Below are positions 24,090-33,226 of a stretch of DNA of 64,000 bases, in pieces. The stretch is from Flavobacterium commune (GTDB lineage Bacteria; Bacteroidota; Bacteroidia; Flavobacteriales; Flavobacteriaceae). The DNA is taken from assembly GCF_001857965.1 (NCBI RefSeq), contig NZ_CP017774.1, positions 1,178,001 through 1,242,000 of the forward strand, read 5' to 3'. A program made the translations under genes and the position numbers. The notes beneath the pieces are model-generated. The model ran no database searches. It was given only the letters and a program-made list of their open reading frames with translations, and was not told where the DNA came from. Numbering within the stretch: position 1 is the stretch's first letter; each line of letters begins with the position of its first letter.

Positions 24090-24812
24090 TTAATCCAACT
24101 TATCCAATAATTCCTGAACCTTATCATAATTCTCATAATCGGGAGGAATCGTCAACAGGATTTCTTTACAAGCCTTATAGTTTTTTTGTTTTAATTTGAC
24201 CAAAGCCAAAGCATAAATCGCCTTGTTTTTATAAATAGAATTCCCTGATTTTATCGAGTTAAACTCAGCCTCGGCTTGCTTAATTTGATTGTTTTCCAAT
24301 AAAGAAATCCCATAAAAATACTGAACTTCTACGGTTTTATTTTCTCTCAAAATAGCCTCAAAAAACGGAATCGCAGCTTTGTAATTCTTAGCATTAAAAG
24401 CTTCTTCAGCCTTTTTTAGATTATCAACTCCTTCGCTTCTTTCGGTCAAATAAGCGTTTTCATATTGATTGTAATCTTCAAAATTGGGGTCAGAAGGATT
24501 AAACAAAAATAATCCAAACAAAATCGCCACCGAGGCAGCAACCAGATAAGCCCAGGGTTTAATTGAAATCACCTTCGATTTATCTGCTTTAAAATGTTCT
24601 TTCGAAATCACTTTTAGATTTGCTGTGAAAGCCTCTCTGTCAGCTGCGAAATCAAATTTTGTTTCTAACTGTATTTGTACTTCTTTGAAAGTTTCAAATT
24701 CCGATGCCAGTTCTTCATTTTCTGAAAGCTGTTTTTCAAAATCCAATCGGGCTTCGTCCGACAATTCGCCTTGAAGGTATTGATCGAATACTATATATTT
24801 CTCTTCTTTCAT
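24090..24812 (-). CDS. TPR membrane protein, probable anti-sigma factor of the adjacent ECF sigma
   Basis: 240 residues. The N-terminal 80 are acidic and helical (QYLQGELSDEARLDFEKQLSENEE), as in the cytoplasmic sigma-binding segment of many Bacteroidota anti-sigma proteins, but without a zinc motif. One transmembrane segment (about 86-104) is followed by a C-terminal region with TPR-like helices (AEEAFNAKNYKAAIPFFEAIL, KQAEAEFNSI) that would face the periplasm. It starts 6 bp after the sigma gene stop, so the pair is co-translated. The anti-sigma role is inferred from this pairing and layout. Confidence 0.72.
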   Translation of the reverse strand: MKEEKYIVFDQYLQGELSDEARLDFEKQLSENEELASEFETFKEVQIQLETKFDFAADREAFTANLKVISKEHFKADKSKVISIKPWAYLVAASVAILFGLFLFNPSDPNFEDYNQYENAYLTERSEGVDNLKKAEEAFNAKNYKAAIPFFEAILRENKTVEVQYFYGISLLENNQIKQAEAEFNSIKSGNSIYKNKAIYALALVKLKQKNYKACKEILLTIPPDYENYDKVQELLDKLD

Positions 24813-24818
24813 GGCTCC

Positions 24819-25400
24819 TTAAATTTTTAATGTTTTAAAACTACTGTGTTCCTGAATCCATTGGGTAAGCTGACCCGTACACAAGGATTTTTTCTTCCTA
24901 ACATAACCATAGGTTACGTTAAGTTTCATGGCTACTTCTTCCATGGATTTCAAAGTAAAACTCCACTTTAAAACTTCCTGGCATTTTTCGCCTAATCTTT
25001 GAAACATCATATCAAAAAGCTGTTGTTTTTCTTCAAATATTTCTGTTTGTGTCACCATCTCTTCCGTGGGTTCATTAGTAGATGTCAAATCATCCTGAAT
25101 TGTTACCCCTTTATTCGACGCTTTTTTTAATTCGTTAAGCCATTTTCTTTTGCACAACAAAAAAAAGTAAGCATCAAAAGGACAACTCAGTTGTAGCTGC
25201 TTTGCTTTTGCCTGATTAAACAACAAAATTAGGATCTCCTGGACCACATCCTGAGCCTGATCTTCATCGCCCGAATTGTTCCTGATATAGGAAACCACTT
25301 TGGGAACAAACTTTTTGTAAATAGACCGAATAATCGCCGAATCATTATTCGCTAATCCTTCGATAAAATACTGATCCGGATGAATTTTGTTTTCTGACAT
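24819..25400 (-). CDS. ECF-type RNA polymerase sigma factor
   Basis: 193 residues with sigma region 2 (IRSIYKKFVPKVVSYIRNN, DQAQDVVQEILILLFNQ, AYFFLLCKRKWLNELKK) and region 4 (FQRLGEKCQEVLKWSF, SMEEVAMKLNVTYGYVRKKK). It should direct RNA polymerase to promoters of its own regulon, held in check by the TPR membrane protein encoded next. It is divergent from a run of envelope and protease genes preceded by four copies of a shared bipartite motif (GGGTAAC-N17-GATATA), the probable target promoters. Confidence 0.92.
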   Translation of the reverse strand: MSENKIHPDQYFIEGLANNDSAIIRSIYKKFVPKVVSYIRNNSGDEDQAQDVVQEILILLFNQAKAKQLQLSCPFDAYFFLLCKRKWLNELKKASNKGVTIQDDLTSTNEPTEEMVTQTEIFEEKQQLFDMMFQRLGEKCQEVLKWSFTLKSMEEVAMKLNVTYGYVRKKKSLCTGQLTQWIQEHSSFKTLKI

Positions 25401-25457
25401 AGGAAAAAAATTGAACTGCTAATGTAGAAAAGAATCTGAAATAAAAATCGGTTTAAT

Positions 25458-25487
25458 GGGTAACAAATATAAAATCAAGTGGATATA
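25458..25487 (+). promoter_or_regulatory. ECF-type promoter candidate, copy 1 (before the 99-residue gene)
   Basis: GGGTAAC at 25458-25464, exactly 17 nt, then GATATA at 25482-25487, ending 28 bp before the ATG at 25516. Three further copies with the same spacing lie at 25973-26146. The GTAAC-type -35 resembles those read by ECF sigma factors. Use by the divergent sigma gene is inferred. Confidence 0.68.
25464..25471 (-). promoter_or_regulatory. -7 box of the sigma/anti-sigma operon (candidate)
   Basis: On the minus strand this reads TATATTTG, a full match to TAnnTTTG, 63 nt before the sigma start codon. It shares one base with the ECF-type -35 GGGTAAC of the divergent promoter. No -33 TTTG at the standard distance was found. 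Confidence 0.4.
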
Positions 25488-25515
25488 GATGTGAAACCTT
25501 TCAAATTGATAAATC

Positions 25516-25815
25516 ATGAAAAATGAACAATTATCCTCTCCAATCATTATTGATAGTTTTTCTGAAAAACTTTCGAATAAAATTCAGGCGGGTTTTAAAA
25601 TCTCCGAATACAACGCCAAATTGCCTTATGTGGTTTTGACAAAAGAGCAAAAAAGCATCAATCATACTTTACATCTTCAACTCTTTTGCATCACATTCGG
25701 GATCTGGTCCGTGGTCTGGATTTATTTGACATTAACCCATACTCCAAAAAAAGAAATCCTAATTGCTATTGATGAAGACGGAAATGTGTTTGAAGAAAAA
25801 TGCCTACTCAATTAA
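25516..25815 (+). CDS. Small membrane protein of unknown function, in the ECF locus
   Basis: 99 residues, not recognised as a named family. The N-terminal half is polar, one transmembrane segment spans about residues 55-74 (LQLFCITFGIWSVVWIYLTL), and a short charged tail (KKEILIAIDEDGNVFEEK) follows. It starts 28 bp after ECF-type promoter copy 1 and is the first rightward gene opposite the sigma factor, which suggests it belongs to the sigma regulon, perhaps in feedback or envelope sensing. Coding is supported by the upstream promoter and natural composition. Confidence 0.72.
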   Translation: MKNEQLSSPIIIDSFSEKLSNKIQAGFKISEYNAKLPYVVLTKEQKSINHTLHLQLFCITFGIWSVVWIYLTLTHTPKKEILIAIDEDGNVFEEKCLLN

Positions 25816-25940
25816 AAAGCCTGTTTGAATGTTTAAAGAAAAAAACCAGCTGTTAGAAACCGGGAAAATTTCTTAAAACGCATCAAAATTACACCCTTTA
25901 GGGTTGGGGAAATAATTTTGATAAATTTCAAACAGGCTTT
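25816..25940 (+). ncRNA. Structured element with three-way-junction potential
   Basis: Three nested inverted repeats fit one fold: P1 pairs 25816-25829 (AAAGCCTGTTTGAA) with 25927-25940 perfectly (14 bp); P2 pairs 25831-25841 with 25869-25879 (10 of 11); P3 pairs 25882-25891 (ATCAAAATTA) with 25913-25922 perfectly (10 bp), with an inner CCC/GGG hairpin. Only one to four bases separate the helices at the junction. It overlaps the stop of the 99-residue gene. It could be a 3' UTR structure, terminator, small RNA or palindromic mobile repeat. Confidence 0.5.
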
Positions 25941-25972
25941 AAAAAAATAATCTGAAATAAATTCAAATTAAA

Positions 25973-26004
25973 GGGTAACAATTCAAAACCCATATTGATA
26001 TACC
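25973..26004 (+). promoter_or_regulatory. ECF-type promoter candidate, copy 2
   Basis: GGGTAAC (25973-25979), 17 nt, GATATACC (25997-26004). First of three tandem units upstream of the lipoprotein gene; the next begins 72 bp later. The spacer shares the AAAAC...ATT wording of the other copies, so the units look duplicated. Confidence 0.65.
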
Positions 26005-26044
26005 AATAGAAACCCGAAGTACTAAAAAAATATTTTGGAAACTG

Positions 26045-26076
26045 GGGTAACAAATTAAAACAAGAATTGATATAAC
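26045..26076 (+). promoter_or_regulatory. ECF-type promoter candidate, copy 3
   Basis: GGGTAAC (26045-26051), 17 nt, GATATAAC (26069-26076). It is preceded by ACTG like copy 4, and the unit repeats 70 bp later. Confidence 0.65.
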
Positions 26077-26114
26077 AACAGAATCAGAAACAATTAAAAA
26101 AAATTAAAATACTG

Positions 26115-26146
26115 GGGTAACAATTTAAAACCCGAATTGATATAAC
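26115..26146 (+). promoter_or_regulatory. ECF-type promoter candidate, copy 4 (proximal)
   Basis: GGGTAAC (26115-26121), 17 nt, GATATAAC (26139-26146). It ends 50 bp before the lipoprotein start codon at 26197, a suitable distance for the functional promoter. Confidence 0.68.
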
Positions 26147-26196
26147 AGTATAAAACAAGTAAAAACCATTTTAACCATAATTAAAATCAAGAAATC

Positions 26197-27171
26197 ATGA
26201 GAACAAATTTTAAAACCATCGGACTTTTATTTTTAGCGGCAATTTCATTCGTAAGTTGCGAAAACGAGAACATCGAAAACACGCCGGCAACAGCAGCAGA
26301 ATTTGCAAATGTCAGAGAAGCAGCCTTAGAAAAAATCACTCAGGAATTTACTATTACTGCCGAAGATGGCGCTACAACCCTAACTTCTGAAAACGGAGTG
26401 AAAATTACCATCAACGGAAGTTGCTTGACTAAAGACGGAAATCCTGTAACCGGCGATGTACAAATTGAGTATGTAGAACTTTTCGACAAAGGAAACATGT
26501 TAGTAACTAACAAACCAACAATGGGAATCATGCCCGATGGAAACCGAAATCTACTAATCTCTGGAGGAGAATTCTTCATCAAAGCAACTCAAAATGGCAA
26601 AGAATTAGCAACCACTTGCAACATTACTTTATTAGTTCCTGCCAGCCTTACTGATGGCGTTGACAATATGATGACTTTATGGAAAGGAATCATCGATGAC
26701 GAAGGAAACTTAGCCTGGGAAGATGCCCGTAAAGCCGATGGAACTAATGGTGGAAAAGGTGGCGTTCAAGCCGAAGGGAACAACTACTATGTGAGTTTTG
26801 GAAACTTTGGATGGACAAATGTGGATAAATTCTACAGCGATCCAAGACCTAAAACTACTATTCTTGTTGATGCTCCCGAAGGATACGACAACAACAACTG
26901 TGCAATCTATTTATCTTATGACGGCGAAGGAACTAACGCTTTAGCAAAACTTGATACTTACACAGCCGAAGGTTTATTCAGCGAACACTACGGTCAAATT
27001 CCAGTAGGCCTTGCTTGTCACATCATCTTTGCGACCGAAGACAATGGAAACTGGAGATACGCCATCAAAGGAGTAACCGTTCAGGCCAATGACGTTTACA
27101 CTTTCACAATGGCTGAAACCACTGTAGGTACCGAAGCTCAATTAATTGCCGCAATCAATGCGATCCAATAA
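26197..27171 (+). CDS. Lipoprotein of unknown function, preceded by three tandem ECF-type promoters
   Basis: 324 residues with a clear lipobox (ISFVSC). The mature part is beta-rich. An N-terminal region (about 50-165; GVKITINGSCLTKDGNPVTGD, NLLISGGEFFIKA) recalls ZU5-like extracellular modules, but this is only a resemblance. The C-terminal half has repeated short strands and many glycine and tyrosine residues. It probably sits in the outer membrane. Three upstream copies of the ECF-type motif suggest high or graded expression under the divergent sigma factor. Confidence 0.82.
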   Translation: MRTNFKTIGLLFLAAISFVSCENENIENTPATAAEFANVREAALEKITQEFTITAEDGATTLTSENGVKITINGSCLTKDGNPVTGDVQIEYVELFDKGNMLVTNKPTMGIMPDGNRNLLISGGEFFIKATQNGKELATTCNITLLVPASLTDGVDNMMTLWKGIIDDEGNLAWEDARKADGTNGGKGGVQAEGNNYYVSFGNFGWTNVDKFYSDPRPKTTILVDAPEGYDNNNCAIYLSYDGEGTNALAKLDTYTAEGLFSEHYGQIPVGLACHIIFATEDNGNWRYAIKGVTVQANDVYTFTMAETTVGTEAQLIAAINAIQ

Positions 27172-27269
27172 AGATTCCCAAATTTAATTTCTGAAAAAAG
27201 TGGTGATTTGCTCATCGCTTTTTTCTATTTTTAAAAGATTTTTAACCGTTAACCAAATAAGAATTAGTA

Positions 27270-27342
27270 GCTTATTCCTGCTGTCCGCTATATCTCTTGC
27301 GGCGAACACCGCCACAAGAGGATGCCGCTACCATCAGGGCTA
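27270..27342 (+). repeat. Dispersed palindromic repeat, copy 1 (GCT...CCGCT...GGGCTA family)
   Basis: The segment runs from GCTTATTCCTGCTGTCCGCT through an internal stem (CTCTTGCGGCG / CGCCACAAGAG) to CCATCAGGGCTA. It matches, as complement, the element at 35505-35579 at both ends while the central stems differ. It ends 15 bp before the start codon of the PKD/barrel gene. Confidence 0.7.
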
Positions 27343-27357
27343 AAACCAGATTTGATT

Positions 27358-29313
27358 ATGAAACCACTAGCATCTATTTTCTTTATTCTGCTTTCTGTTG
27401 TCTCCTTTTCACAAAAAAAAGTCAAAGATACCGTTACCCGAAGAGCCGCAATAAACTACAGTCAAAATGCGAATACGGTTTCATACAAACCCGAAACGCC
27501 ACCATTAATTCCTATTGCTGGCGCACCAAAACCTAGTTTTTCCTATCTATGGGAATTTGGAGATGGCAACTACAGCAAAGCCGCCGAACCTAAACATACT
27601 TATAAAAACAAAGGAACCTACACTACCCGATTGACTGTTACCAATAATTACGACAACGGAAAACCACCCGCTACCCGACCAAAAAAAGTAGTAATTAACG
27701 AAGTATCAGATAAAAATTTTGACGAAATCGCATCCGTTGCTGACCAAAATGGTTTTGCTCTTCAAAAAAACTGCGACCCTATTCCCGACCAGGAAATGGA
27801 AGTAATCCTGAGCTATCAAAACTTGGAAAACTATGTCGCCAATGGAAAAATCTATCTTTTTTACAACGAAACGCAATTCAAGGACAACAACTTTCAATTA
27901 GCTGATTTTCGAACTTATGCAGGAGAAAGAACAGTCACAGAAAACACTTTTGCCGCTATCAACGATATTGACCAATCCAATTCATATTTGGCATCCAACA
28001 ATACTTATTTACCAATAAGAAAATACGAGAACACCACCACCGAAGAAGATTTAGACGCCACTCTGGCCGAAGCGCATAAAACGTTCAAAAACGTTTCCAT
28101 CTTAGAATTTGACGATGCTAATCCGCAGGAAACCCGCAATGTTTTTTACACTTTCAAGACTACTCCCGAAATGCTCAAAGACACCAGCGCGACAATTACT
28201 ATGCGAGGTATTTATGTCCCAAATCGTAGTTATAAAAACCACAAAGTAAAAAATCTGGAAATGGAAATTGTCACTTCCCACGACCCTAACAAAATGGGAT
28301 CTAACGGAAGTTTTATGAATTATCGATTCGTTCGTTTTAAAAGAGTGAATTTCAAAACCCGTTTTCAAAACAACGGTGAAGGTCCTGCAAGAATAATTCG
28401 TCTGGAAACCGATATTCCGGATATGTTTGACAAGAAAACATTTCAAATTGAAGACATGTATCCTAAATGTCCTATTTGTCCAAAAGGCGAAATCCCAACT
28501 ACTAGCTGTCTGGATACAATAATTAAGCAAAACCAAATCTTCTTTACCTTCAAAAACATTTATCTGCCGGGAAGCGAACAGAAAAATGTAAAAGAAAAAG
28601 ACAGTACCAAAGGTTTTGTAAAATACTCTTTGAAATTCAACAAAGACTTTCATAAAATAAACACCCGAAGCAGAACCGCAATTATTTTCGACAAAAACGA
28701 ACCTATTATAACCAATTACGCCACCACCCGATTCCTTCCCGGAATTTCTATTGGTGCTAAAGCAGGTTATAATTATTACCCAAATTTAGACAAATCCAGA
28801 AGCTATTTTGTGGGCGCGACCATTTCTCCATATAAATCCTATCGTTTGTATTGGCAAGCCGAATTAATCAATAGTGTTCATGATTTCAATTCAACCACCT
28901 CAATCACCAATGGTTTCACTACCACTGCTAACGGAGTCCGCCAAGCTACACGTACTAGCAAAACTACAAGTTATTCAAATTTTAATAATGAGGTTCCATT
29001 ACTCCTTCGTTACAACATCAACAATTTCATCGGTATTGGAGCGGGTGTCCAAGCCAATATTAATGCTTCGGAAAAACAGGAACAACACACTAAAATTGAA
29101 TATTTCGAATCAGAAAAACCAGATTCTCCAATTATCAAAACCGAAGAAAGCAGCAGTTCCGACAGCAAAACTTTCAGCAATTTCAAATCGGGATTATTGT
29201 TTGATTTAACGTTGGGTTTCGCCCGCATCGGCCCTAGTTTAGGCGCCCGTTATGTGATGAATTTCAAAGAGAATTTCAATTATTTTCAAGTGTATGGAAT
29301 ATGGAAGTTTTAA
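27358..29313 (+). CDS. Exported PKD-domain protein with C-terminal outer-membrane beta-barrel
   Basis: 651 residues from the ATG at 27358, chosen because a signal peptide (MKPLASIFFILLSVVSFSQ) starts there; an ATG at 27322 lies in the upstream repeat. A PKD domain (about 50-110; YLWEFGDGNYSKAAEPKHTYKNKG) is followed by a long beta-rich middle with a small CPICP cysteine pair. The C-terminal region from about residue 460 (GISIGAKAGYNYYP, SYFVGATISPY, GIGAGVQANI, ending VYGIWKF) has alternating strands and a terminal aromatic, like 8-stranded outer-membrane barrels. It lies in the run controlled by the ECF locus, before the CHAT protease gene. Confidence 0.82.
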   Translation: MKPLASIFFILLSVVSFSQKKVKDTVTRRAAINYSQNANTVSYKPETPPLIPIAGAPKPSFSYLWEFGDGNYSKAAEPKHTYKNKGTYTTRLTVTNNYDNGKPPATRPKKVVINEVSDKNFDEIASVADQNGFALQKNCDPIPDQEMEVILSYQNLENYVANGKIYLFYNETQFKDNNFQLADFRTYAGERTVTENTFAAINDIDQSNSYLASNNTYLPIRKYENTTTEEDLDATLAEAHKTFKNVSILEFDDANPQETRNVFYTFKTTPEMLKDTSATITMRGIYVPNRSYKNHKVKNLEMEIVTSHDPNKMGSNGSFMNYRFVRFKRVNFKTRFQNNGEGPARIIRLETDIPDMFDKKTFQIEDMYPKCPICPKGEIPTTSCLDTIIKQNQIFFTFKNIYLPGSEQKNVKEKDSTKGFVKYSLKFNKDFHKINTRSRTAIIFDKNEPIITNYATTRFLPGISIGAKAGYNYYPNLDKSRSYFVGATISPYKSYRLYWQAELINSVHDFNSTTSITNGFTTTANGVRQATRTSKTTSYSNFNNEVPLLLRYNINNFIGIGAGVQANINASEKQEQHTKIEYFESEKPDSPIIKTEESSSSDSKTFSNFKSGLLFDLTLGFARIGPSLGARYVMNFKENFNYFQVYGIWKF

Positions 29314-29325
29314 ATTTATGGAACA

Positions 29326-29400
29326 CGGATTAAACAGATTGACACAGATTTTTTTAATAATTTCTTCGTGAATCTCCGTGAAATGCTTTGCGTATCTTTG
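29326..29400. repeat. Dispersed non-coding repeat, CACGGATTAAACAGATT...CTTTGTG type
   Basis: Between the PKD/barrel gene and the CHAT gene. It contains CACGGATTAAACAGATT, GACACAGATT, a CGTGAA duplicate and GCGTATCTTTGTG, the wording of short degenerate repeats scattered in Flavobacterium genomes (recollection). Its TATCTTTG (29393-29400) also matches the -7 consensus and could start transcription of the CHAT gene. Confidence 0.45.
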
Positions 29401-29414
29401 TGAAACAACTCTTT

Positions 29415-32015
29415 ATGAAAAAACTTTTTTGCTATTTTCTTCTAGTTTCTTCCCTGATTCTTTTCGGACAAAAGCCACTTACTCAAGAAGACAAAATCTA
29501 CAATGCGGTAGATACTTTTGTAGCAAATCCAACAACAGAAAATTTAAAAAACCTCAATAGTACCGAACACGCATTCTGGAAAAATCCAACGCCGAAAACT
29601 AAAAACGAACTGCTGGCAATTGTTATTTTAAATTGCAACAAAGCCTATTATGAAAACCAATTCAACAAAGTCCAGGAAGCAGTTAGCAGTTATGAAAAAG
29701 CCTGGAAAATACATCAAAAATACCGTCTCAACAATTACGACATTGTAGAATATTGCCTGAAACCTTTGGGGAATTTATACACCATTCTGGGCGATTACGA
29801 CAATGCCGAAAATACCATCAAACAGTATTATTACATTTCCAATCAGGAAAAAAATCAGGATGAAAAAATAGCAGCGATACTTAATTTATCGAATGTATAT
29901 CAAAACTCGGGCAGAAACCACCAAGCAATTGATTTACTTGAAAAAACAATTAAAACACAGCCCATTTCTGACATCCAAAAAGGAATTTTATTAAACAATT
30001 TAGGAAACAGTTATCTTTTAAGAGGAATAAATGATGATGAATTGAGTGCCGAAAATACTTTTATTGCAGCAATTCCATTATTAAAAAAAGATAAATCCCA
30101 ACAGGAATATTTATTAAATGCCTATCTCAATTTATACAAATTCAATATTAGTAATCCTCGGAATGTAGCATTTAATTATTACGAAAAAGCAAGAACTATT
30201 TTTGAAAAGCTACCCAACAAAAACCCTAGAAGTAAAGCCCAATTTTATCTAGAGAAGATTATTTTATTACTCAATCAGAATAAATTAACCGAAGCTCAAA
30301 CAGTACTTAAAACCGTTTATAAAACCTTAATTCCAAATTATCCTAGTCAAAAAGACATTCTCCCTAAAGAAAAAGACCTCTATGCAGAAACCATTTTACT
30401 TGATGCCTTAGACTTTCAAGCTGACTTATTTACAATTCAAAATCAACCCCAAAAGGCTTTAGACAGTTACGCTCTTGCTTTTCACATTGAAGATTTATTT
30501 CAAAATCTAATTGTGTATGAAAACTCAAAAATTATTACGCAAACCAGAAACCGGAAACGCATTGAAAAATGTATTAGTATTTATCAATCTTTATTTGAAA
30601 AAGAAAAAAAATCGATTTACATAGAAAAAGCATTTCAACTCGTTGAAAAAACAAAATCGATTGTATTAAAAGAGCGATTGTTCAATAATCAAAAGAGTTC
30701 AAAACAAAAAAAATCCCTTATAGAACAACTCGAAAACCAAAATACTATTATTGTTAAAGAACAACAAAAAGGGGATTTAGCTGATATCCAAAAAATCAAC
30801 AAAGCCATTAAAACACAAAATGAGTTGATGTTGCAAATCAAGCAAATACAATCAAAAACCGAAAACAAATCAAATAACGACATTAATTTGAATGATTTAT
30901 ATGCCCGATTAGAAAAAGAGGATGCCATTATGGTTGAATATTTTTGGGGTACTAAAAACATATTTTCGTTTACAATTCAAAATGGCAAAATTTCGCTAAA
31001 ATCATTTTGCATTGGTTCTATGTGTGGAGAATCAGTATTCACATTTATAGGATTTTTTCATGATGCCAGTGCCATTACAAACCTTCTTGATTTATTCAAA
31101 AAAGATGCTTTTTCTGCTTATCGTTATTTACAATTACCGAAAAAATCAAACTACAAAAACCTCATCATCATCCCTGATGGTCTTCTTTGTTTGATGCCTT
31201 TTGAAGCCTTAATTACTAAAGAATCCAACACAACTAATTTTGCTCAAATGCATTATTTGTTGAATGATTACAATATTGGGTATCAGAATTCGGCGCAATT
31301 TTATTTGTCCTTCGACAAGCTCAGGATGACAAATGAATATAAAACTGTTTTAGGAATTTTTCCAGTTTTCGAAAACACGCCTTACACACTGACTTATTCC
31401 AAAGACGAGTTGCATTCGATTCAAAAAAACTTCAAAGGGAAATATTTAGAGAATACCGAAGCTACTTTCGATAATTTTAAAAAAAATGCAGCTGATTATT
31501 CCATTCTGCATCTGTCCACTCATGCTGATGCTGGCGATGTAGTTAGTCCGGCAAGTATAAAATTTTACGATCAGGAAATCCTGTATTCCGAATTGTATCA
31601 TTTAAATATCAATCCTGATTTGGTCGTTTTGAGTGCTTGCGAAACTGGCATTGGTAAACTCTATAAATCCGAAGGCGCCATGAGTATTGCCCGCGGATTT
31701 CAATTGGCTGGAGCGCAAAATCTGTTATTTTCACTATGGAAAGTTAATGATTATACGACCTCAGTTTTTATGGATTCTTTTTACCAAAATATCAAAAACG
31801 GTCAATCTTATTTGGAAGCCAATGCTAATGCCAAACGTGATTTCTTAAAAAATCCGGATATTTCCAATGCTAAAAAATCACCTTATTACTGGAGTACTTT
31901 TATTTATTATGGTGATTTACAAACCACCAAAGAGTCAATTAGTTATATTTTTTATATATTTGGTATATTGATTCTAATTGCTTTACTTTTGGTTTTCAAT
32001 CGCTATCGAAAATGA
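29415..32015 (+). CDS. Exported TPR-CHAT domain cysteine protease with C-terminal membrane anchor
   Basis: 866 residues from the ATG at 29415, where a signal peptide begins (MKKLFCYFLLVSSLILFGQ); an ATG at 29388 is upstream. TPR-like helices fill about residues 35-440 (ALDSYALAFHIEDLFQ, VEKTKSIVLKERLF), then a coiled coil (about 445-490) and a CHAT caspase-like domain (about 540-830). The catalytic dyad is intact: H703 in LHLSTHADAG and C742 in VVLSACETGIGK. A transmembrane helix (about 841-860) ends the protein, so the body should be periplasmic. It is coupled by a 4-bp stop/start overlap to a retropepsin-like gene. An in-frame dispersed repeat at 31304-31333 encodes LSFDKLRMTN inside the CHAT region. 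Target unknown. Confidence 0.9.
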   Translation: MKKLFCYFLLVSSLILFGQKPLTQEDKIYNAVDTFVANPTTENLKNLNSTEHAFWKNPTPKTKNELLAIVILNCNKAYYENQFNKVQEAVSSYEKAWKIHQKYRLNNYDIVEYCLKPLGNLYTILGDYDNAENTIKQYYYISNQEKNQDEKIAAILNLSNVYQNSGRNHQAIDLLEKTIKTQPISDIQKGILLNNLGNSYLLRGINDDELSAENTFIAAIPLLKKDKSQQEYLLNAYLNLYKFNISNPRNVAFNYYEKARTIFEKLPNKNPRSKAQFYLEKIILLLNQNKLTEAQTVLKTVYKTLIPNYPSQKDILPKEKDLYAETILLDALDFQADLFTIQNQPQKALDSYALAFHIEDLFQNLIVYENSKIITQTRNRKRIEKCISIYQSLFEKEKKSIYIEKAFQLVEKTKSIVLKERLFNNQKSSKQKKSLIEQLENQNTIIVKEQQKGDLADIQKINKAIKTQNELMLQIKQIQSKTENKSNNDINLNDLYARLEKEDAIMVEYFWGTKNIFSFTIQNGKISLKSFCIGSMCGESVFTFIGFFHDASAITNLLDLFKKDAFSAYRYLQLPKKSNYKNLIIIPDGLLCLMPFEALITKESNTTNFAQMHYLLNDYNIGYQNSAQFYLSFDKLRMTNEYKTVLGIFPVFENTPYTLTYSKDELHSIQKNFKGKYLENTEATFDNFKKNAADYSILHLSTHADAGDVVSPASIKFYDQEILYSELYHLNINPDLVVLSACETGIGKLYKSEGAMSIARGFQLAGAQNLLFSLWKVNDYTTSVFMDSFYQNIKNGQSYLEANANAKRDFLKNPDISNAKKSPYYWSTFIYYGDLQTTKESISYIFYIFGILILIALLLVFNRYRK
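31304..31333 (+). repeat. Dispersed repeat in frame inside the CHAT gene
   Basis: The 30-bp palindromic segment begins TTTGTC, ends GACAAA and contains CTTCGACAAGCTCAGGATG. A near copy in opposite orientation lies at 34179-34204. Its length keeps the frame open and adds LSFDKLRMTN to the protein. Confidence 0.75.
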
Positions 32016-32449
32016 AAAATCTTCAGGAAATCCTAAAAAAGCATCAATATAAAAAAGTAAAATTTAAAATTACCAAAACACAACATCTGTTGGTAAAAGC
32101 CAAAATCAATGGCGTGAAAGGTAATTTTATTTTAGATACGGGAGCTTCTAATAGTTGTGTAGGCTTTGAACACATTGCATTATTTAATTTAAACGCCGAA
32201 GATTCTAAGACCATGGCTTCTGGAGCCGGAGCAACAGGAATGCTCACCCAAACGGCCAGAGCAAATAAATTACAACTTGGTTCTTGGAAAAATAATAATT
32301 TCGATTTGATCATATTTGATATGTCACATGTCAATGAAGCCTTGACGGCTTACAAATCAAAAACTGTTGACGGAATCATTGGAGCCGATATTTTACTAAA
32401 AGGCAAAGCCATAATTGATTACTACAACAATTGCTTATATTTACAATAA
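32012..32449 (+). CDS. Retropepsin-like aspartic protease, coupled to the CHAT gene
   Basis: 145 residues with the clan AA signature: catalytic D42 in FILDTGASNSC, a flap-like glycine region (ASGAGATGM) and the C-terminal hydrophobic-glycine motif VDGIIGADILLKGKAIIDY. One such domain per chain implies an active dimer. There is no signal peptide, so it seems cytoplasmic, unlike its CHAT partner. The ATG overlaps the CHAT stop by 4 bp (ATGA), which suggests translational coupling. Its substrate is unknown. Confidence 0.85.
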   Translation: MKNLQEILKKHQYKKVKFKITKTQHLLVKAKINGVKGNFILDTGASNSCVGFEHIALFNLNAEDSKTMASGAGATGMLTQTARANKLQLGSWKNNNFDLIIFDMSHVNEALTAYKSKTVDGIIGADILLKGKAIIDYYNNCLYLQ

Positions 32450-32470
32450 CCAACAGAAAACCAAAACATT

Positions 32471-33226
32471 ATGATAAAATTCTACAAAGCAGCCTGTCTT
32501 GCTCTGGGAATGTTACTATTCTCCTGTTCCACCCAAGACTTAACAGAAGATAGTCAAAATTCTACAGCAGCATCTAATACGAATTCTTCCGAAACGTCAA
32601 AAACCACCCCTGTTAAAAACAATATTTCTAAATTTTGGGATTTTAACAACTTAGATGAATGGGATGATGCTACTCAGGTGGGTGAAGCTAATTATTTTAT
32701 CGAAAATGGAAATTTACGCCTGTTTACCAATGCTAATACTTGGGATCGAACTAAAATAAAATCGATTGCTACTTATGCTACAGGAACGTATTCCTGGCGC
32801 GTTTTTGTCCCTGAAATGGGAGTGGGCGATTGTGCCAGCATAGGTGCTTTTTTATACAGTGATGATACCCACGAACTCGATTTTGAAATTGGCTATGGCA
32901 AAGAAACTGTTCGTCAGGGACTGAATGCTGCATCCGATGATCTTATTGTTTATGCCACTTCGCAAGCTAATCCAAGCCATTCTTTTCAAAGCAAAATCAA
33001 AAGAAATCAATGGTACACTTTTACAATAACATTAGCTTTAAATACAAAGAAAAAATATGTGGCAACCTGGAAAATTGACAACCAAAACCTAACAAGCAAA
33101 ACACTTACTTACGGCACAGCCACTAAATTTAAAATCTTTTGCAGTGTCGAAAATCTGAGTTTTATAGGCGATCATATTCCTGCTACACAAAATTATGCTT
33201 TATTTGACTGGGTAGAATTCAAATAA
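32471..33226 (+). CDS. Lipoprotein with GH16-like concanavalin fold
   Basis: 251 residues, lipobox (LLFSC). After a Ser/Thr/Asn-rich linker, the rest (about 55-251) is a beta jelly roll. HELDFEIGYG matches the GH16 active-site pattern ExDxE, and the C-terminal strand reads YALFDWVEFK, as in GH16-like folds. It may cleave or bind a beta-glucan or galactan at the cell surface, but the match is short and a lectin role is possible. It starts 21 bp after the protease gene and is probably in the same operon. Confidence 0.7.
   Translation: MIKFYKAACLALGMLLFSCSTQDLTEDSQNSTAASNTNSSETSKTTPVKNNISKFWDFNNLDEWDDATQVGEANYFIENGNLRLFTNANTWDRTKIKSIATYATGTYSWRVFVPEMGVGDCASIGAFLYSDDTHELDFEIGYGKETVRQGLNAASDDLIVYATSQANPSHSFQSKIKRNQWYTFTITLALNTKKKYVATWKIDNQNLTSKTLTYGTATKFKIFCSVENLSFIGDHIPATQNYALFDWVEFK

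Follow-up and report, generated by a model that had tools for sequence, protein, structure and literature searches.

We analyzed a 64-kb stretch of the Flavobacterium commune genome (NZ_CP017774.1; 3.85 Mb, a single contig), called the window in the following, to which all coordinates of the locus refer. Within this window, an extracytoplasmic function (ECF) sigma factor gene and the gene of a tetratricopeptide repeat (TPR) membrane protein, a candidate anti-sigma factor, lie next to genes for an exported TPR-CHAT protein and five further proteins (Table 1). An original prediction, made from the sequence before this analysis, had listed this gene content, and all eight genes were recovered at the positions it gave. 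Domains were assigned by Pfam and NCBIfam profile matches, and the linkage of the genes, a promoter-like motif and the conservation of a His/Cys dyad in the CHAT domain were likewise established by computation. The sigma and anti-sigma genes are separated by 6 nt, and the reading frames of the TPR-CHAT protein and the retropepsin-like protease overlap via ATGA.

A search of the family gave CHAT matches in 56 of 120 genomes (E<=1e-5), a search of the genus in 47 of 121 Flavobacterium genomes (E<=1e-20) and a search of the phylum in 61 of 158 genomes. For comparison, loci were chosen among the family and genus matches (40 orthologous, 20 more distant), and 20 loci were chosen from the phylum search. 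We observed a recurrent gene order in the 40 orthologous loci, with the anti-sigma and ECF sigma genes on one side and the lipoprotein, PKD-barrel, TPR-CHAT and retropepsin genes on the other. The PKD-barrel gene is present in all 40 of them, sigma and anti-sigma genes in 39 each, the lipoprotein gene in 38 and the retropepsin gene in 37; the one locus without sigma and anti-sigma (L071) stops at a contig end. Among the distant family loci an ECF gene was found at most 2 kb from the CHAT gene in 17 of 20 cases and within the stretch in 18, and for the phylum loci these numbers are 7 and 14 of 20. No ECF gene occurs in 42 control stretches (295 kb in total, taken for other purposes and each shorter than the test loci). 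Because the order is conserved in 40 loci and the controls are free of ECF genes, the linkage is not explained by chance. The original prediction had staked its reading on a conserved gene order, and since this order is kept, the reading is not refuted on this point.

Three arrangements were observed in the distant loci: the sigma/anti-sigma pair divergent from a small exported protein and CHAT (six loci), CHAT convergent, tail to tail, with anti-sigma and sigma (ten loci) and a single operon (one locus). On the trees these arrangements need five changes for CHAT and four each for anti-sigma and sigma, compared to a mean of about 17 after shuffling. An orthologous and a convergent locus coexist in three genomes (G093, G091 and G179), and in some Bacteroidota CHAT genes stand in tandem (L212, L238 and L240). 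In the 121 Flavobacterium genomes we found a CHAT orthologue in 44 (three more have distant matches only) and the TPR anti-sigma in 47, a count that leaves out one distant match. Both proteins occur in 43 genomes, CHAT only in one, anti-sigma only in four and neither in 73, where the counts come from related species and are not independent events. The sole genome with CHAT only (G150) is an assembly of 590 contigs; three of the four genomes with anti-sigma only carry the fusions described below, and in the fourth, which is 75% complete, the gene lies on a 7 kb contig. The association of sigma, TPR anti-sigma and CHAT that had originally been proposed is thus borne out by their co-recurrence in three gene arrangements, by the presence of the anti-sigma in all but one of the 44 genomes having a CHAT orthologue and by the promoter-like motif of the locus described below, and we consider it very likely that the three form one functional unit.

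Table 1. Genes and promoter-like elements at the locus, with positions in the window
Feature	Position	Strand	Evidence and remarks
TPR membrane protein, anti-sigma candidate	24090-24812	-	240 codons; TPR_19 E 1.9e-9 (Pfam)
ECF sigma factor	24819-25400	-	TIGR02937 (sigma70-ECF) 54.1 bits vs cut-off 42.9; Sigma70_r2 over cut-off
Promoter-like motif GGGTAACA-N16-GATATA	25458-25487	+	before small protein
Small protein, one predicted transmembrane helix	25516-25815	+	hydropathy; accessory; 16/40 loci
Promoter-like motif, first of three tandem copies	25973-26002	+	
Promoter-like motif, second tandem copy	26045-26074	+	
Promoter-like motif, third tandem copy	26115-26144	+	ends 53 nt upstream of lipoprotein ATG
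Lipoprotein	26197-27171	+	predicted ZU5/GAIN-like (47-214) and transthyretin/CnaB-like (218-310) domains
Terminator-like hairpin	27193-27225	+	3' of lipoprotein gene
Exported PKD-DUF7619-DUF7849 protein	27322-29313	+	start at 27358 suggested by signal peptide; PKD_4 1.4e-11, DUF7619 9.3e-14, DUF7849 5.6e-71
TPR-CHAT protein	29388 (TTG) or 29415 (ATG) to 32015	+	CHAT (PF12770) E 3e-43, TPR_12 2.9e-10
Retropepsin-like aspartic protease	32012-32449	+	Asp_protease_2 8.4e-14; without signal peptide; D42 in LDTGAS
Lipoprotein earlier labelled GH16-like	32471-33226	+	flank, not core; ELDFE motif by eye only

The TPR-CHAT protein is the only CHAT match in the F. commune genome at E<=0.001, and its relatives with names are mostly from Flavobacterium; F. 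palustre and F. glycines are among the species with the orthologue. Hydropathy and inspection of the sequence ends by eye gave a signal peptide, a TPR array, the CHAT domain, a C-terminal transmembrane helix and a short basic tail, and the protein looks like a periplasm-facing protein anchored in the inner membrane. A CHAT domain with a His/Cys dyad follows the TPR array, as in TPR-CHAT proteases (PF12770). Numbered from the TTG start, the dyad is H712/C751; from the ATG at 29415 it is H703/C742, the numbering under which the original prediction had correctly called it intact. It is kept in 41 of 41 CHAT orthologues and in 20 of 20 distant homologues, and this invariance suggests catalysis. 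The predicted structure (pLDDT 88) has Csx29 as its closest solved fold in a structure search. A comparison of the plain CHAT sequence with PDB sequences matched the TPR only, which made profiles built on the CHAT region necessary; with these profiles and the fold search the protein was found to be homologous to the TPR-CHAT region of DdvA, which is deposited (PDB 8rot and 8rw5) as a transmembrane anti-sigma factor with this region in one chain.

By hydropathy the anti-sigma candidate consists of a cytoplasmic N-terminal part, one helix at about residues 80-98 and a C-terminal TPR domain predicted to be periplasmic, and by eye this architecture is the same across 29 aligned homologues. Its identity as an anti-sigma candidate rests on gene position and on a family match below the cut-off. 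An ECF sigma with such an adjoining membrane anti-sigma candidate was observed in 39 of 39 complete loci, the helix being computed for the protein of the window. In three genomes (G168, G195 and G214), which are without a CHAT orthologue, sigma up to about residue 128 (region 2) is joined in frame to the anti-sigma helix and TPR. These sigma2-TPR fusions (L126:5005-5976, L127:5083-6051 and L128:4339-5292) are intact open reading frames (ORFs) of about 320 codons and adjoin the retropepsin gene.

A promoter-like motif that was overlooked before belongs to the locus: GGGTAACA-N16-GATATA occurs in four copies in the window compared to 0.01 expected from window shuffles. Using the pattern GGGTAACN{16,18}GATATA we found five matches in the genome, four of them at the locus, and none for the reversed control; the fifth, at genome position 2694777 (L036, L146), starts 54 nt upstream of an exported ORF of 250 residues. 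A motif copy lies between the sigma and PKD genes in 38 of the 39 relatives having sigma. In 40 chosen genomes that bear the module 94 motif matches (67 in the locus and 27 elsewhere) stand against 19 control matches, while 20 chosen genomes without the module gave 6 motif and 9 control matches. Directly before the PKD gene the motif was found in 3 of 40 loci and directly before the retropepsin gene in none of 37; as the motif matrix was built from the same loci, the high scores upstream of the small protein and lipoprotein genes are circular, while the low scores elsewhere are informative. In all likelihood this ECF sigma is the factor that reads the motif. Neither GGGTAAC nor GTAAC appears in the main-text passages of the F. 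psychrophilum promoter map, where six motifs are listed.

Outside the locus, where consensus-like sites were fetched first and the remainder afterwards, 15 of 19 N16 sites in module-bearing genomes are intergenic and stand before an ORF with a signal-peptide-like start according to a crude hydropathy rule. The same holds for 1 of the 14 sites used for comparison (N16 from genomes lacking the module, or N15 or N17; Fisher p 5.9e-5). Six of the 15 sites belong to orthologous L,D-transpeptidases and are not independent. Among the L,D-transpeptidase orthologues GGTAACA occurs 185-206 nt upstream in 14 of 16 and the strict motif in seven (motif loci L138-L141, L149 and L150; L157-L172), which suggests that in larger Flavobacterium genomes the response has a cell-wall branch. 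In the three fusion-bearing genomes the strict motif before this gene is kept in one and altered in two. As a target in F. commune itself the L,D-transpeptidase was rejected: the best homologue is 43% identical and has no motif upstream. The predicted targets, named by eye, comprise lipoproteins, the L,D-transpeptidase, a barrel protein and a curlin-like protein, a list that suggests an envelope response. Variable exported or lipoprotein genes, most with their own motif copy, are located between sigma and the core lipoprotein, in the interval up to PKD, in seven loci (L073, L088, L091, L097, L101, L104 and L105), in the first of which an OmpA-like protein replaces the core lipoprotein.

From these data we propose that the locus encodes a signalling module across the membrane, with an ECF sigma factor gated by a periplasmic TPR-CHAT protein, a reading whose chances we regard as about even. 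The topology of the parts is deduced from the predictions given above. The cytoplasmic part of the TPR protein would hold the sigma factor at the inner membrane and show its TPR domain to the periplasm, where the exported TPR-CHAT protein, anchored by its C-terminal helix, would lie on the same side. TPR-CHAT might sense an envelope cue, perhaps relayed by the PKD-barrel protein, which is a natural candidate for the outer-membrane input, and would then act on the periplasmic anti-sigma TPR, most likely by cutting it. The freed sigma factor would start transcription at GGGTAACA-N16-GATAT promoters located upstream of the small protein and lipoprotein genes and, in several species, of genes for further exported proteins. 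We propose the gating step because CHAT and the anti-sigma TPR are predicted on the same membrane side, DdvA fuses both and, according to passages of PMC10028731, Csx29 releases an ECF-type sigma by cutting its inhibitor. That CHAT acts on the anti-sigma factor seems to us probable. That it does so by proteolysis falls just short of an even chance overall, and if gating occurs, cleavage would be its more probable form. Of the earlier suggestion that proteolysis and an ECF factor are linked here, the linkage of sigma, anti-sigma and CHAT has held up, and the release of sigma by proteolysis stays conjectural.

Several observations weigh against this proposal. The anti-sigma family NF052375 is matched weakly (E 7e-4, 19.6 bits vs a cut-off of 100). 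CHAT occurs without an ECF gene at L118 and L121 and, within the stretch, at 6 of 20 phylum loci, and on the trees the CHAT proteins of at least three loci (L111, L113 and L116) group with the other arrangement than their sigma and anti-sigma do, so that the pairing is not strict. No copy of the motif faces the sigma gene in 39 loci or stands directly before the CHAT gene in 40 loci, and the gap between the lipoprotein and PKD genes contains a hairpin with a T-tract in 24 of 39 cases compared to 5% in shuffles; sigma control of CHAT therefore requires read-through or another promoter. In G168 the strict motif before the L,D-transpeptidase persists despite the fused and shortened sigma gene, and for this reason a different sigma factor could recognise sites of this kind.

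Three other explanations were weighed against the proposed gating by cleavage. CHAT could gate the anti-sigma without cutting, as a sensory co-receptor on its TPR, with the dyad serving self-processing or ligand binding. TPR domains are present in both proteins, and DdvA, which holds its TPR-CHAT region inside the anti-sigma protein, may act likewise (no statement on a catalytic activity of DdvA was found in the openly licensed literature); the invariance of the dyad across orthologues and distant homologues points to catalysis instead, and we hold this explanation to be rather unlikely. CHAT could also be an output, one of the envelope proteases made when sigma answers a stress for which the anti-sigma TPR is the sole sensor, which would fit the position of its gene downstream of sigma-type promoters and the exported nature of the other predicted targets. 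However, the convergent loci have CHAT tail to tail with the anti-sigma-sigma pair, this motif was not seen as locus promoter in any of the 20 distant loci, and a plain target is not expected to stay the neighbour of its sigma factor across the phylum; we regard this explanation as unlikely. A defence or cell-death system akin to Craspase or CHAT-gasdermin would be in line with the role of CHAT effectors in defence and with Csx29 as the closest solved fold. We consider it highly improbable, as the only PADLOC families matched by the eight proteins are TPR and PDC-M08B, which is uncharacterised, the module occupies a single housekeeping position with TatD in 32 of 40 orthologous loci, and the targets predicted for it belong to the envelope.

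The genes around the sigma, anti-sigma and CHAT unit differ in their attachment to it. The module is located between the TatD and retropepsin genes. The retropepsin gene occurs in 102 of 121 Flavobacterium genomes and directly adjoins TatD in 10 of 10 CHAT-less loci examined, so we rejected it as a dedicated part; the original prediction had counted this coupled protease as a component, and it is present irrespective of the module. It matches the PADLOC candidate group PDC-M08B (E 2.9e-9) despite being near-universal in the genus beside TatD, and this group may include housekeeping proteins. The downstream lipoprotein, which had been included as well, is found in 2 of 40 orthologous loci and also lies by the retropepsin gene in the CHAT-less genome G124; its GH16 label was dropped, since Pfam lends it no support at E<=1 and PDB sequences give no match at E<=10. 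The C-terminus of the PKD-DUF7619-DUF7849 protein, which corresponds to DUF7849 and ends in Phe, is a probable outer-membrane barrel. For the core lipoprotein the fold search returned GAIN/ZU5, which is suggestive only; its profile matches none of the PDB sequences at E<=1, and the protein of the window has no Pfam family over the cut-off. In the alignment, inspected by eye, residues 197-212 form a GWTN/GWSN strand, at the position of the self-cleavage Ser in FIIND/ZU5 domains. Because Gly or another residue occupies this position, self-cleavage looks unlikely.

The genomic link between ECF sigma and CHAT is shared with the ECF54 group, whose context comprises CHAT, carboxypeptidase or subtilase proteins and for which passages of PMC8999054 propose a proteolytic link; ECF54 is described there without an anti-sigma, whereas here it is present in all complete loci. 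The Dma anti-sigma factors of Bacteroides (Dma1/Das1, Dma2/Das2) likewise control sigma across the Bacteroidota envelope with an outer-membrane barrel (passages of PMC13088901), but they combine anti-sigma domain, helix, tether and barrel in one chain, whereas here the anti-sigma candidate ends in TPR, the barrel protein is separate and CHAT is added. Dma3, with a sigma domain in the same chain according to these passages, recalls the sigma2-TPR fusions. Neighbourhoods of caspase and TRADD-N (EACC2) likewise combine genes for a predicted caspase fold, an ECF sigma and a TPR protein; their domain sets differ, and the passages of PMC8195603 that treat them describe no CHAT or membrane anti-sigma. 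A CHAT/anti-sigma module of Bacteroidota was not found described in the passages covered of the openly licensed literature, nor was this locus mentioned in those of the F. johnsoniae envelope literature. The original remark that no described system with this gene set is known is qualified by DdvA and by the ECF54-CHAT context.

DdvS-DdvA, an ECF sigma/transmembrane anti-sigma pair known from Myxococcus xanthus (a possible source of the deposited chain), shares with our module the adjoining membrane anti-sigma, a candidate in our case, and a homologous TPR-CHAT. In DdvA, however, the anti-sigma part and TPR-CHAT form one chain, whereas they are separate genes in the window and 39 loci, where CHAT comes with a signal peptide and a C-terminal helix of its own; moreover, the ddvS promoter needs DdvS, whereas here the sigma gene has no copy of the motif facing it. 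In Craspase (type III-E: Csx29 TPR-CHAT, Csx30 and CASP-sigma), Csx29 works with Cas7-11 and cuts Csx30 upon RNA binding. In contrast, a scan of the eight window proteins gave no Cas family, CHAT is not a soluble cytoplasmic protein judging by hydropathy and by eye, and both partners are predicted to be membrane proteins with periplasmic domains. We therefore propose that the module resembles Craspase and DdvA in its working and yet is neither. A wider version, in which a caspase-like CHAT, facing the periplasm and anchored in the inner membrane, would be the site-1 protease for the TPR anti-sigma in a phylum-wide, CRISPR-free envelope signalling system, a split DdvA and independent parallel to Craspase with the PKD-barrel protein as sensor and ZU5/GAIN-like lipoproteins and cell-wall enzymes as regulon, is conceivable, but we view it as doubtful. 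The module may reveal what activates an envelope response in Bacteroidota, and it offers a sharp, testable promoter with a list of candidate targets. Craspase illustrates that a TPR-CHAT protease can free an ECF-type sigma, and DdvA that TPR-CHAT can reside within an anti-sigma factor; if our proposal is true, the widespread split module of Bacteroidota would suggest CHAT-gated sigma control to be an old and general use of the fold rather than a CRISPR speciality.

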